Part shown: one piece after another, positions 59,643 to 64,000 of the stretch
Layout of the letters: the number at the start of each line of letters is the position of its first letter
How positions within the stretch are numbered: position 1 is the stretch's first letter
NCBI RefSeq assembly: GCF_900101025.1
Contig: NZ_FMUH01000005.1
Coordinates: forward strand, 248,001-312,000
Length of the DNA stretch: 64,000 bases
Origin: Klenkia marina
GTDB taxonomy: Bacteria; Actinomycetota; Actinomycetes; Mycobacteriales; Geodermatophilaceae
Direction: 5' to 3'
Translations under genes and position numbers: made by a program
The notes under the pieces: model-generated
Databases searched by the model: none
What the model saw: only the letters and a program-made list of their open reading frames with translations
Told to the model about the DNA's origin: nothing

Positions 59643-60118
59643 GCCTCACCGAGGTCGACCGCCGGCACCTGAGCCGCTGCGTCGAGCTGGCCGAGGAGGC
59701 CCTGGACGCCGGCGACGAACCCTTCGGGTCGCTGCTGGTGGCCGCCGACGGCACGGTGCTGGCCGAGGACCGCAACCGCATCGCCGGCGGCGACTCGACC
59801 CGGCACCCGGAGGTCGAGCTGGCCCGCTGGGCGGCCTCGCACGTGCCCGCTGCCGAGCGCCCCTCCGCCACCGTCTACACCTCGGGCGAGCACTGCCCGA
59901 TGTGCTCGGCCGCGCACGCCTGGGTGGGGCTGGGCCGCATCGTCTACGCCAGCTCGTCGGCCCAGCTGGCCGGGTGGCTGGCCGAGCTGGGCGTGGCCCC
60001 GGGCCCGGTGGCGACGCTCCCGGTGCAGGCCGTGGCACCCGGCGTCCCGGTCGACGGTCCCGACGACGAGCTGTCGGCCCGGGTCCGCGAGCTGCACGTC
60101 CGCCTGCACCGCCGCTGA
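59639..60118 (+). CDS. Nucleoside deaminase (guanine/cytidine deaminase family)
   Basis: This 159-residue zinc deaminase has ligands His56 with proton-shuttle Glu58 in RHPEVELARW (HPE for the usual HAE) and Cys86/Cys89 in EHCPMC. The size and the N-terminal ELAEEALDAGDEPFGSLLV fit guanine deaminase-like or tRNA-adenosine-deaminase-like members. The C-terminal region is less conserved. It is coupled to the Gfo/Idh gene by GTGA. Confidence 0.88.
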   Translation: MSLTEVDRRHLSRCVELAEEALDAGDEPFGSLLVAADGTVLAEDRNRIAGGDSTRHPEVELARWAASHVPAAERPSATVYTSGEHCPMCSAAHAWVGLGRIVYASSSAQLAGWLAELGVAPGPVATLPVQAVAPGVPVDGPDDELSARVRELHVRLHRR

Positions 60119-60155: not shown

Positions 60156-61919
60156 ATGCCGTTGACTCCGCGCATGGGGAGACGGGACGGCGCAGCGCGG
60201 TCGCTGTGGCGCGAGCTGCTGCCGACGGCCTTCCTGCTCACCGGTGACCAGGTCGCTGCGCAGCACCTGGTCGTCCGCGCCCTCTCCCGCGGCCGGCCCC
60301 CGACCGACCACGACACCGGTGTCGTCGCCCTGGTCCGGGTGCACCGCCGCCGCTGGTCGTCCGCCTGTGCCGGTCGCATCACCGGCGAGCTGCCCGCCCC
60401 CTGGTGGGCCGCTCCAGCCGACCTCGCAGACGCCCGCGACCTCGCGACCCGCCTCGACGCCCTCGACCGCGACGAGCGCACCGCCGTCGTCCTGCGCGGT
60501 CACGAGCAGTGGGACCCCGAGCGCACCACCGCCCTGCTCCCCCACGTCGACCTCGACCCCCTCCTCCAGCGGCTGCCCGCCGACCTGCCCCGGCGACTCG
60601 ACGTCCTCGCCGGGCTCTGCGGCACCGCCGCCCTGCACGACGACGCGGTGGTCGGCGCCGTGCGGGCCACCTCGGCCCGGCGCGCCCGCCGGACGGTCCT
60701 CGGTGCCGTGGGGGTCGCCGCGGTCGTGGCAGCCGGCGTCTGGATGCCGTCCCCGGCGGAGCAGCCGACGGCCGAGCCCACCACCGGTCGGCCCGTGGCC
60801 GCCCGCCCGGACCCGGGAGGGGCGCTCGCCGCGGCACCTCGTGGCCCGCTCGCCGGCGACCCCGACCTGCTCGCCGCCGTCCGTGCGCGGTTGGTCGCCG
60901 ACGGCGGACCCGGCGAGGGCCTGCGCCTGCTGTACGGCGACGACGTCCTGGGTGTCCGCGTGCTGCTCGTCGCCGGGCCCGACGGGGTGCAGTACTGGCT
61001 GACCGGGCCGGACGGGGCCTCCCCCGCCGACCTCGACGTCACGGGCTTCGGCTCCGGCGTGCTCGACGAGACCGCGATGGCCGTGACCGTGCCCGGGGCC
61101 GACGGCGCCGTCCGACTGGTCGTGGTCGCCGAGGAGGGCACCGACCTCGGGGCCCGCACCGGCGTCGACGTCGACCCCTCGACCGGGCTGGTCTCGCAGG
61201 GGTGGGTCGACCTGCCGACCACCGACGGGGTCGCCGCGGCCGTCCTCGACCGCACCTGGCAGCGCGGGCTCCGGGTCCTCGCCGACGGCCCCGACGACGC
61301 CCCCGTCGAGCTGTGGCCCGTCCCGACCGGCGAGCCGAGCTGGTCCCTCGCCGACGCGGGGCCGGGGGCGGCGAGCCGGTCGGGCAACCTCACCGCCTCG
61401 ACCTACGCCTACGAGCGGGCGCTGGCCACCATCGCCGACGCCACCGGGTGGGCGCCGGACCGGCTGCAGGTCTCGGTGCTCGGGGCCACCGACGTGCCGA
61501 CCCCCTCGGGCGGGAGCGACGAGGTGGTGGCCGTCGCCGCGGTGCTGCCCGACGGCGCCGTGGTGACCACCACCGGGTCCGGCTACGTGCGCAAGACGGC
61601 GGGGGGCTTCACGTCGTCGTGGAACGACTGCGGCGGGAGCGCCTACCCGGCCGGGACCGACCCCGCCCGGGTCGTCGTGGCCGCCACCTGCCTGGTCCCC
61701 GGCTCGGACGGCGGGGGGTTCGACCGCACCACCGTGGTCTTCGCCCCACCCGGGGTCGACGTCGAGCTGCGGACCGTGGACGGGGCACCCGTCGAGGTCG
61801 AGCTCGACGCAGGTGCCGGGTGGAGCACCTACGTCGGGGCGCAGGACCTGGCCACCGCCACGGCGGACGGTGCCACGTACCCGGTGGCCGGCCCAGCGGC
61901 GGACGCGCTCGCCTACTGA
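60156..61919 (+). CDS. Membrane-anchored protein with ECF-sigma-like N-terminus
   Basis: In this 587-residue protein, the first 150 residues resemble a decayed ECF sigma/SigE-type core: RSLWRELLPTAFLLTGDQVAAQHLVVRALSR (14-44) and LATRLDALDRDERTAVVLRGHEQW (97-120). The helix-turn-helix is missing. One membrane helix follows (TVLGAVGVAAVVAAGVWM, about 188-205), then a 380-residue extracytoplasmic part with two Cys and beta-rich sequence. The start has a GGAGGTGG site. Sigma-like remnants fused to a membrane anchor are found in actinobacteria but have no assigned role. Confidence 0.7.
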   Translation: MPLTPRMGRRDGAARSLWRELLPTAFLLTGDQVAAQHLVVRALSRGRPPTDHDTGVVALVRVHRRRWSSACAGRITGELPAPWWAAPADLADARDLATRLDALDRDERTAVVLRGHEQWDPERTTALLPHVDLDPLLQRLPADLPRRLDVLAGLCGTAALHDDAVVGAVRATSARRARRTVLGAVGVAAVVAAGVWMPSPAEQPTAEPTTGRPVAARPDPGGALAAAPRGPLAGDPDLLAAVRARLVADGGPGEGLRLLYGDDVLGVRVLLVAGPDGVQYWLTGPDGASPADLDVTGFGSGVLDETAMAVTVPGADGAVRLVVVAEEGTDLGARTGVDVDPSTGLVSQGWVDLPTTDGVAAAVLDRTWQRGLRVLADGPDDAPVELWPVPTGEPSWSLADAGPGAASRSGNLTASTYAYERALATIADATGWAPDRLQVSVLGATDVPTPSGGSDEVVAVAAVLPDGAVVTTTGSGYVRKTAGGFTSSWNDCGGSAYPAGTDPARVVVAATCLVPGSDGGGFDRTTVVFAPPGVDVELRTVDGAPVEVELDAGAGWSTYVGAQDLATATADGATYPVAGPAADALAY

Positions 61920-61935
61920 GCCGGCACCGGGTGGG

Positions 61936-63294
61936 TCAGAGCGGCTCGACCGCGTCGGCCTGCGGGCCCTTCTCGCCGGGGCTGGCGGTGAACTGCACCC
62001 GCTGACCCTCCTCGAGGTCGCGGAAGCCACCGCGGTCGGCGATGGCCGAGAAGTGCACGAACACGTCGGCGCTGCCGTCGTCGGGGGCGATGAAGCCGAA
62101 GCCCTTCTCGCCGTGGAACCACTTCACGGTGCCGCCCTGCCCGCCCTCGATCGGCACCGGCACCGCCCGGGCCTCGCTGCGCGAGCGCTCTCGCGGGGTG
62201 GACCGACCGGGGTCGCGCCGCGCCTCGCGGCGGGCCGGGTCGCGGCGCGGCGGCGGACCGGCGGAGTCCAGCGGCCGGACGACGTCGGCCTGCGGACCTC
62301 GGTCGCCCGTGCTGGCGGCGAACTCGACGCGCTGGCCCTCCTCGAGGTCGCCGTAGCCGCCGTCGTCCTCGATCGCCGAGAAGTGCACGAACACGTCGCG
62401 CGAGCCGTCGTCGGGCTCGACGAACCCGAAGCCCTTGTCGGCGTTGAAGAAGCGCACGGTGCCCTGCTGCAGACCCGAGCCGCGGCCACCGCCGGCACCG
62501 CCCGGGAGCGGCTGCACGTGGGTGGCCTGCCAGCCCCGGTCGCCCTGGGTGGCCTCGAACTCGACCCGCTGGCCCTCGGCGAGGTCGCGGTAGCCGCCGT
62601 CGTCGACGATCGCGGAGAAGTGCACGAAGACGTCGTCACCGCCGTCGTCGGGGGTGATGAACCCGAAGCCCTTGTCGCCGTTGAAGAACCGCACGGTGGC
62701 CTGCGGCAGGCCGGAGCCGGCGTCGTACCCGCCGCCACCGCCACCGCCGCCTGCCAGCGGCTCGACGTGGGTGGCGGACAGGCCGCGCTCGCCCTCGGTG
62801 GCCTCGAACAGCACCCGCTGGCCCTCGTCGAGGCTGCGGTAGCCGCCGTCGTCGACGATCGCGGAGAAGTGCACGAAGACGTCGTCGCCACCGGCGTCGG
62901 GGGTGATGAACCCGAAGCCCTTGTCGCCGTTGAAGAACCGCACGGTGCCCTCGGCGCCGCCGCCGGACGAGCGCGGGGCCTCACGACGCGGCGCCTCGCG
63001 ACGGGGTGCGCGCTCCTCGCGCCGGGGCCCACGGTCGTCGCGCCGGACCTCCCGCGACTGCGAGCGGTCGACCTGCACCGGCGGACCGCCCAGCGGGCTC
63101 ACCCGGTCGGCCTGCAGGCCGCGCTGACCCGGGCTGGCCTCGTACTCGACGCGCGCGCCCTCGTCGAGGCTGCGGAACCCACCGGTGTCCTCGATGGCCG
63201 AGAAGTGCACGAAGACGTCCTCACCACCGTCGTCGGGCCCGATGAAACCGAACCCCTTCTCGGCGTTGAACCACTTCACGAACCCCTGCGGCAT
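61936..63294 (-). CDS. Five-domain cold-shock protein
   Basis: This 452-residue protein is built from five tandem cold-shock domains: 2-68, 115-180, 198-263, 277-342 and 387-452. Each keeps the RNA-binding motifs RNP1 (KGFGFI/V) and RNP2 (DVFVHFSAI). The linkers alternate in type: 69-114 is Arg/Glu-rich (RRxDR, RREAP repeats), 181-197 is an eight-Gly run, 264-276 is Gly-rich and 343-386 is Arg-rich ([12 protein letters not shown]). Normal bacterial CspA is a single 65-70-residue domain. It probably binds RNA or single-stranded DNA cooperatively as a chaperone. The ATG at 63294 begins directly with CSD1; about 70 bp separate it from the divergent-edge flippase-like gene. Confidence 0.93.
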
Positions 63295-63364
63295 GCCCTG
63301 CTCCTGCACTCGACTGCACTGCGAAACCTGTGTGTGTACCCGACCAGCGTCCCATCCGGCACGG

Positions 63365-64000
63365 TCACCCCTCCGCAGGGTGCACCGGCCGGGGTGCCAG
63401 CACCAGGCAGAGCGCCCCGATGGCGGCCAGCAACCAGAGGCTGATGAACCGGTAGACCACGACGGCCGGGACCGCCTGGGCGGCCGGGAGGCCCGCGGCG
63501 ACCAGGGCGGAGGCGACCGCCGCCTCGACCACCCCGATGCCCCCCGGCGTGAGCCGGGTGGAGGAGACCAGGGCGCCGGCGGCGAAGGCCAGCGCGGCTC
63601 CCCGCAGGGAGAGCTCGGCACCGACGGCGTGCACCGCGAACAGCAGGCACAGCGCGTCGAGCACCCAGTTCGCCAGCGCCAGCAGACCGGCCGCCACCGC
63701 GTTGCGCGCCCCCGGGCGGATCGACCCTAGCGAGGTGAGGGCGTCGTCGACGGCCGGGCCCACGACGGCCGGGCGCAGCACGCGGAACCAGCGCGACAGC
63801 GGCGCCAGCACGGTCATGAGCAGCTTGACGACGAGGTTCTTGGCCTCGGCGCTGCGGGTGACCGCGAGCAGCGTGAGCACGGGGACGACGGCGGCCACCG
63901 ACGCCAGCGACGCGACCACCGCGCCCACCGTGCTGCCCGTCGCCGCCGAGCTCACCGCCACGACCGCGGCCAGGGCCACCGTCGAGCAGACCCCCGACAC
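63365..64000 (-). CDS. Flippase-like (UPF0104/lysylphosphatidylglycerol-synthase TM) protein, 5' end cut
   Basis: This partial, at least 211-residue membrane protein is incomplete at the right edge, which is its N-terminal side. It has several hydrophobic helices and the family motif [26 protein letters not shown] near the C-terminus, plus [22 protein letters not shown]. This matches the UPF0104/MprF-type flippase domain (LPG synthase TM). It is probably a lipid or glycolipid translocator. Confidence 0.85.

Follow-up and report, generated by a model that had tools for sequence, protein, structure and literature searches.

A conserved five-cold-shock-domain protein of Klenkia and its three- and four-domain relatives in the Geodermatophilaceae

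The protein encoded at 61936..63294 in the window (the 64,000-nucleotide stretch of Klenkia marina DNA analysed here) carries five cold-shock domains (CSDs) in one chain and belongs to a real, conserved and lineage-specific family of proteins with three, four or five CSDs. At a probability of about 0.6 we favour the explanation that it acts as a chromosomal, multivalent, low-specificity binder of single-stranded nucleic acid, that is an RNA chaperone that would work by avidity.

Domains, linkers and predicted structure

The features of the gene and its immediate upstream region are as follows.

61936..63294, reverse strand: five-CSD protein, 452 residues (ORF list, translation, Pfam)
63301..63305, reverse strand: ribosome-binding site AGGAG, six bases 5' of the ATG start
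63097..63288, reverse strand: CSD1, VKWF type, 91 bits
62953..63096, reverse strand: linker 1, Arg/Glu/Asp/Pro-rich, predicted disordered (R 29% over 7 Klenkia frames; pLDDT below 50 at residues 71-111)
62761..62952, reverse strand: CSD2, VRFF type, 84.9 bits
62704..62760, reverse strand: linker 2, Gly-rich (G 49% over 7 Klenkia frames)
62509..62703, reverse strand: CSD3, VRFF type, nearest to CSD2 (83% amino acid identity), 88.4 bits
62467..62508, reverse strand: linker 3, Gly-rich (G 58% over 7 Klenkia frames)
62275..62466, reverse strand: CSD4, VRFF type, 87.2 bits
62134..62274, reverse strand: linker 4, Arg/Pro/Asp-rich, predicted disordered (R 24% over 7 Klenkia frames; pLDDT below 50 at residues 345-378)
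61945..62133, reverse strand: CSD5, VKWF type, 93.2 bits
63365..64000, reverse strand: flippase-like membrane protein (LPG_synthase_TM; Pfam, NCBIfam), which extends past the window's end and is not counted among the system's parts

The original prediction of a 452-residue chain with five complete CSDs and intact KGFGFI/V and VFVHFSAI motifs is borne out, as the open reading frame lies where it was placed and Pfam PF00313 covers the chain in five stretches (414 bits, with the cut-off at 27; E = 6.4e-127). Taken singly, all five domains pass the same cut-off with 84.9-93.2 bits, and RNP1 and RNP2 (KGFGFI or KGFGFV, and DVFVHFSAI) are complete in each of them. The chain begins at CSD1 and stops at CSD5, without tails, and the top two NCBIfam models, one CspE and one CspA, each match it in five stretches. 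While the first aromatic cluster reads VKWF in CSD1 and CSD5 and VRFF in CSD2-4, the positions that we take to be ligand contacts in B. subtilis CspB (W8, F9, K13, F15, F17, F27, H29, F30 and F38) hold, in each of the five domains, either the same residue or another aromatic in place of an aromatic, with W8 being F and F38 being Y in CSD2-4. Of the CspB contact positions beyond this set, K7 is replaced by R in CSD2-4, R56 by K in CSD5 and Q59 by S in CSD2. CSD4 is the most conserved of the five, with a mean pairwise identity of 96% over seven Klenkia. A 543-residue open frame also runs antisense to the gene (window 61813-63444, forward strand); high-GC DNA often contains long antisense frames.

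An AlphaFold model computed from an 11-row alignment contains five five-stranded barrels (mean pLDDT 69.6, pTM 0.27), and its pLDDT drops below 50 in the linkers, at residues 71-111, 182-194, 265-274 and 345-378. The low pTM and the low pLDDT of the linkers argue for five barrels without a fixed mutual arrangement. Although the linkers had been described as alternating between Arg/Glu-rich and Gly-rich, their composition in K. marina follows the order R-rich (45 residues), G-rich (16), G-rich (11) and R-rich (44), and this R, G, G, R order holds as an average over the seven Klenkia frames examined, in which the gaps between CSDs measure 11-52 residues. In these frames linkers 1 and 4 have a mean length of about 45 residues, 29% and 24% R and a net charge per residue of +0.11, and linkers 2 and 3 have mean lengths of 23 and 21 residues, 49% and 58% G and nearly no R (1% and 7%).

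Such linkers bear on the proposal that the protein is a condensate scaffold, in which five RNA-binding domains and Arg-rich mixed-charge linkers would make it phase separate, in an RNA-dependent manner, into bodies that form under stress and resemble RNP granules. The multivalency of the chain and the predicted disorder of its linkers are consistent with this, as are linker compositions of 19-29% R, with K rounding to 0%, in five groups of relatives (against 8.4% R and 1.3% K in the window's other crude gene calls), the mixed-charge repeats of RDDRG type in several relatives, and the entry of human R/D mixed-charge domains into nuclear speckles (PMC9324279, accessible part). However, the same part of that paper reports no phase separation for an alternating R/D peptide, and the central Klenkia linkers are those nearly free of R. 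Moreover, stretches of 40 residues with at least 25% R occur in 6 of the 37 crude gene calls of the 64-kb window (the CSD gene and five others; these calls, not a proteome, form the composition control), so the R-richness of the linkers alone is unremarkable. We consider a condensate scaffold improbable.

Distribution and descent of the family

A multi-CSD locus is present in 52 of the 96 Geodermatophilaceae genomes searched, belonging to 6 of the 12 genera: g1 (Klenkia, 9/9), g2 (3/3), g3 (1/1), g4 (20/20), g6 (Modestobacter, 18/18) and g9 (1/1). We judged presence and absence from the best E-values together with the loci, with multi-CSD genomes reaching 2.6e-27 or better and the remaining genomes 2.8e-25 or weaker. 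By the same criterion no such locus was found in the 44 genomes of g5, g7, g8, g10, g11 and g24, several of which are incomplete, and since 6 of the 12 genera do without it by this criterion the gene appears inessential to the family's way of life. Phylum-wide, at an E-value of 1e-25 that was calibrated on the family only and would miss divergent arrays such as that of G027, and with at most five candidates scored per genome, none of the 295 other genomes yielded a multi-CSD locus and only K. marina's own passes (1/296); PF00313 matches are present in 264 of the 296, with up to 11 per genome among the matches listed. The top named matches are Klenkia records with 79-86% identity and 'Modestobacter sp. 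Leaf380' with 76%. Among the best 80 of 140 relatives (79 loci), a sample whose search patterns favour Klenkia, nine loci have at least three CSDs in frame (L037-L045, all named Klenkia or Modestobacter), nine have two (L046-L054) and the remaining loci have at most one.

CSDs were counted in 50 frames, including G027 from another family and leaving out the g6 loci G048, G064 and G101. Klenkia has five CSDs in seven frames and four in two, g6 four in 14 and three in one, g2 four in three, g9 four in one, g4 three in 20 and g3 three in one, and G027 has four; across the family there are thus mostly three CSDs in two genera, four in three and five in Klenkia. The two Klenkia genomes with four CSDs are G007, where the contig ends and the remaining match lies on another contig, and G005, where the frame changes before CSD5, and the g6 locus of G048 likewise meets a contig end. 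All five CSDs stand in a single unbroken frame in seven of the nine Klenkia genomes. Interrupted frames, which reflect either sequencing error or tolerated loss, occur in the single-contig G005 and in G064 and G101 of g6. The interrupted multi-CSD loci, in three genomes, are L122, L164 and L166.

A mobile origin is not supported, as 62 loci on viral contigs gave 62 ORFs with one CSD each. The plasmid search returned 1805 records, and the 118 distinct ones among the matches listed span 102-297 bases, which points to one CSD being hit by several query domains. As 34 of the 1805 records cover at least 80% of the query, a multi-CSD gene on some plasmid is possible.

Within the Klenkia protein CSD2 and CSD3 are the closest pair, as had been proposed, with 83% amino acid and 89% nucleotide identity; every other pair has at most 75% and 82%, values that the next-closest pair, CSD3 and CSD4, attains. 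The suggested phylogenetic comparison of the five domains was carried out with a tree of 63 columns and 96 rows from 23 chosen genomes, five of the nine Klenkia among them, in which 41 forks stay open. Klenkia CSD4 and CSD5 form well-supported clades (100/99 and 99/93, respectively), which argues that the five domains are not interchangeable recent copies. CSD2 and CSD3 share a group at 96/96 that also takes in the last domains of the type B loci (described below), although the placement of these inside the Klenkia CSD2 group is probably wrong. The CSD1 clade is weak (99/76) and joins the first domains of g2, g9 and G086, CSD3 reaches 93/0, CSD2 is not clean, and d2-d4 of g6 are not separated from one another. 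The in-place duplication that had been inferred for CSD2 and CSD3 is thus upheld, but it is old: the pair is common to all five Klenkia in the tree, by which a recent duplication in Klenkia was rejected. The extra Klenkia domain is best read as the product of an old d2/d3 duplication, although in the protein alignment the four-domain forms have their gap at CSD4.

A one-residue GG insertion (HFSAI..GG[YF]) marks the first domain in 48 of 49 family loci and the last counted domain in 49 of 49. In the middle domains it is found throughout in Klenkia, g6 and g9, and elsewhere in 0/3 (d2) and 1/3 (d3) of g2, 10/20 (d2) of g4 and 0/1 (d2) of g3. Of 86 distinct single-CSD ORFs in the fetched loci five carry it, all of them pieces of the interrupted L122, L164 and L166, and the other 81 do not. 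Because the insertion is common in the family and missing from these 81 other single CSDs, we argue for a single origin of the three-, four- and five-domain series.

In all 21 pairs of the seven Klenkia frames dN/dS is below 1 (domains 0.08-0.43, linkers 0.20-0.58), and this, together with the unbroken frame in seven of nine Klenkia, rules out that the protein is an assembly fusion of separate genes. Synonymous divergence (dS) is 0.16-0.29 for the CSDs versus 0.40-0.64 for the linkers; among the neighbouring genes it is 0.41-0.57 for the flippase and oxidoreductase and 0.56-0.65 for a 587-residue protein. We rejected the low dS of the domains as a signal, as two-fold codons, in which the domains are rich, hardly vary. 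A smaller difference remains, for example 27% vs 46% for Gly codons.

A further reading is that the array grew by neutral or dosage-driven repeat expansion, expanding and contracting with each CSD an ordinary Csp and the linkage without a function of its own. In its favour, the domain number differs between genera (3-4-5), the unseparated d2-d4 of Modestobacter are as expected under homogenisation, and the K. marina genome has seven CSDs in total, these five and two in separate genes on other contigs, so that five linked copies could replace missing single Csps. Within genera, however, the number is nearly fixed, with five in 7/7 complete Klenkia frames, four in 14/15 unbroken g6 frames and three in 20/20 of g4, while Klenkia CSD4 and CSD5 keep their position identity and the order of linker compositions is kept. 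Such growth is a very improbable explanation.

Gene neighbourhoods and proposed function

All nine Klenkia have the flippase-like gene upstream on the same strand, close by in eight and about 1.6 kb off in L039/G008. A conserved operon was nevertheless rejected, as the short flanks around the loci of other genera yielded neither the flippase nor the other tested neighbours, the exceptions being an oxidoreductase (68%) in L164, on the opposite side of the gene, and a weak match in L130. The start codon is preceded by GCAGGAG in each of the 28 upstream regions of type A listed and in none of the eight of type B. A TGGGA..CTG block some 50-60 bases 5' of the start codon (window 63344-63354) is kept in 9/9 Klenkia. 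The forward-strand protein at window 60156-61919 (587 residues) is without a Pfam or NCBIfam match and evolves fast, with 46-52% identity in three Klenkia, and was not found beside the CSD gene in four others. A small protein at window 59646-60118 (forward strand) is also present downstream in most Klenkia loci and has an HPE...PCxxC-like motif of putative deaminase type.

Type B comprises 11 loci (L155-L163, L165 and L167) from ten genomes of g4 and one of g3, with a weak CSD2 (53-60 bits), and in every one of them lhr stands no more than about 100 bases upstream of the three-CSD gene and on its strand. The two lhr copies searched gave 1290 and 1299 bits with PRK09751, which we take to be the Lhr helicase model; both are pieces cut by the locus end and fall below the full-length cut-off of 1496. 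The remaining nine loci have the same lhr gene by tblastn at 95-97%. Beyond the three-CSD gene, again on the same strand, a nei2-like glycosylase gene is present in all ten loci that reach that far. The one copy put through a family search scores 34.9 bits with PF01149 (cut-off 25.5) and 31.7 bits with the H2TH domain (cut-off 34.7), the other copies having been identified by tblastn; position and family suggest a Nei2 orthologue.

This neighbourhood makes a DNA-repair role a real rival worth testing, namely that the protein protects the genome by coating or remodelling single-stranded DNA or RNA:DNA hybrids in repair with Lhr and a Nei2-type glycosylase, the repair role being ancestral and the Klenkia gene having moved away. 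An opposite-strand gene, however, parts the CSD gene from the nei2-like gene in 10/10 loci, and neither lhr nor nei2 is matched in the window or in the Klenkia, g6 and type A loci examined besides, whose flanks are mostly 1.5-6 kb long. A PafBC/RecA-NDp promoter motif does not rise above shuffled sequence upstream of the CSD gene in nearly all loci (L128 ties the shuffle maximum of 9), and types A and B may represent separate lineages. In mycobacteria the lhr-nei2 operon is induced by damage and gives protection from inter-strand crosslinkers (PMC11323726, accessible part), and CSDs are described as hardly discriminating RNA from single-stranded DNA, which they also bind (PMC7825780, accessible part). 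The neighbourhood suggests that the type B three-CSD gene may be a hitherto overlooked third member next to a known operon for crosslink repair. Overall we regard the repair role as rather unlikely, and rank the RNA chaperone above it because no lhr linkage is seen in Klenkia.

The favoured explanation, a pentavalent single-strand binder, is supported indirectly by the five intact binding surfaces, by purifying selection and by the predicted structure. CSDs bind short single-stranded stretches with little sequence preference. The binding and avidity that we infer, together with the linker roles, RNA over DNA as the main ligand and a role in stress, would then work as follows. Each of the five tethered Csp-type OB barrels would bind a short single-stranded stretch, and their tethering would raise the apparent affinity for long unstructured RNA (or single-stranded DNA), such that stretches of tens of nucleotides might be covered or bridged by one molecule. 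Linkers 2 and 3, which are Gly-rich, would serve as spacers within a CSD2-4 core, while the Arg-rich linkers 1 and 4 might also touch the phosphate backbone non-specifically and leave CSD1 and CSD5 free to move. As a working role, the RNA chaperone would keep transcripts single-stranded under stress, although the ligand could equally be single-stranded DNA. Since three-, four- and five-domain forms exist in one family, the effect of valency on RNA or single-stranded DNA chaperoning is directly testable.

Comparison with known systems

Bacterial Csps have a single CSD as a rule, and human CSDE1 has five (PMC7825780, accessible part). Proteins with two CSDs are described in Caulobacter (CspC and CspD, PMC4551563), and a dinoflagellate protein combines three CSDs with an RRM in a paper that calls bacterial Csps CSD-only (PMC4863620). 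The 'multiple CSDs' of PMC6950789 we read as several genes per genome, and the accessible part of PMC6719143 does not mention multi-CSD proteins. Among the matches listed in the open-licence literature, as far as their accessible parts go, we found no description of a bacterial protein with at least three CSDs. To this extent the claim that such a protein is new in bacteria stands, but the two-CSD Caulobacter proteins and eukaryotic UNR/CSDE1 were already known.

Each Klenkia domain is 46-61% identical to bacterial Csps among the best 50 Foldseek matches. The protein differs from CspA and CspB in having five CSDs and linkers over 452 residues instead of one CSD of about 70, and from single Csps by the GG insertion after HFSAI, seen in 0/81 distinct single CSDs of the fetched loci. 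Like the Klenkia protein, the alphaproteobacterial two-CSD proteins are bacterial chains with multiple CSDs, yet these have two domains and not five. On a model built from the K. marina domains, the domains of the nine fetched two-CSD loci reach 53-73 bits each, against 124-132 for the protein's own domains. Y-box proteins such as YB-1 have one CSD and a charged disordered region, and their disordered parts are tails, not linkers. The 528-residue frame of G027/L168, from another family of the same order, also has multiple (four) CSDs. Its domains, however, are divergent (49-77 bits) and its linkers are rich in Ala, Pro, Gly and Ser, not Arg, and since the GG insertion is found in none of its four domains it stands apart from the series; it is probably an independent case.

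In architecture the Klenkia protein most likely corresponds to eukaryotic UNR/CSDE1, with bacterial Csp domains as the building blocks. Both have five canonical CSDs in one chain, and Drosophila Unr supplies the top three Foldseek matches in the PDB, each a fragment with three CSDs (CSD789, CSD456, and CSD789 with pAbp), one of which has poly(A). These superpose poorly on the whole chain (TM to query 0.18-0.29, rmsd 7.6-16.3), which indicates a likeness of make-up and not of overall arrangement; single Csps follow as the next matches, most of them with a TM to target close to 0.9. In contrast to UNR, which carries further CSDs between the canonical ones (PMC7825780, accessible part), the gaps in Klenkia are linkers predicted to be disordered. 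The UNR-specific PF23456 gives 19.7 bits on the Klenkia protein, below its cut-off of 27, and the Klenkia domains fit the bacterial CspE and CspA models of NCBIfam best. A bolder reading, possible although on the unlikely side, is that this lineage independently built the UNR/CSDE1 architecture through a 3-4-5 series of Csp domains with Arg-rich disordered linkers, as an organiser of single-stranded DNA and RNA in the response to damage and drying that in some relatives is joined to the Lhr-Nei2 genes. As a counterpart of UNR/CSDE1 in bacteria, the family lends itself to studies of convergence.
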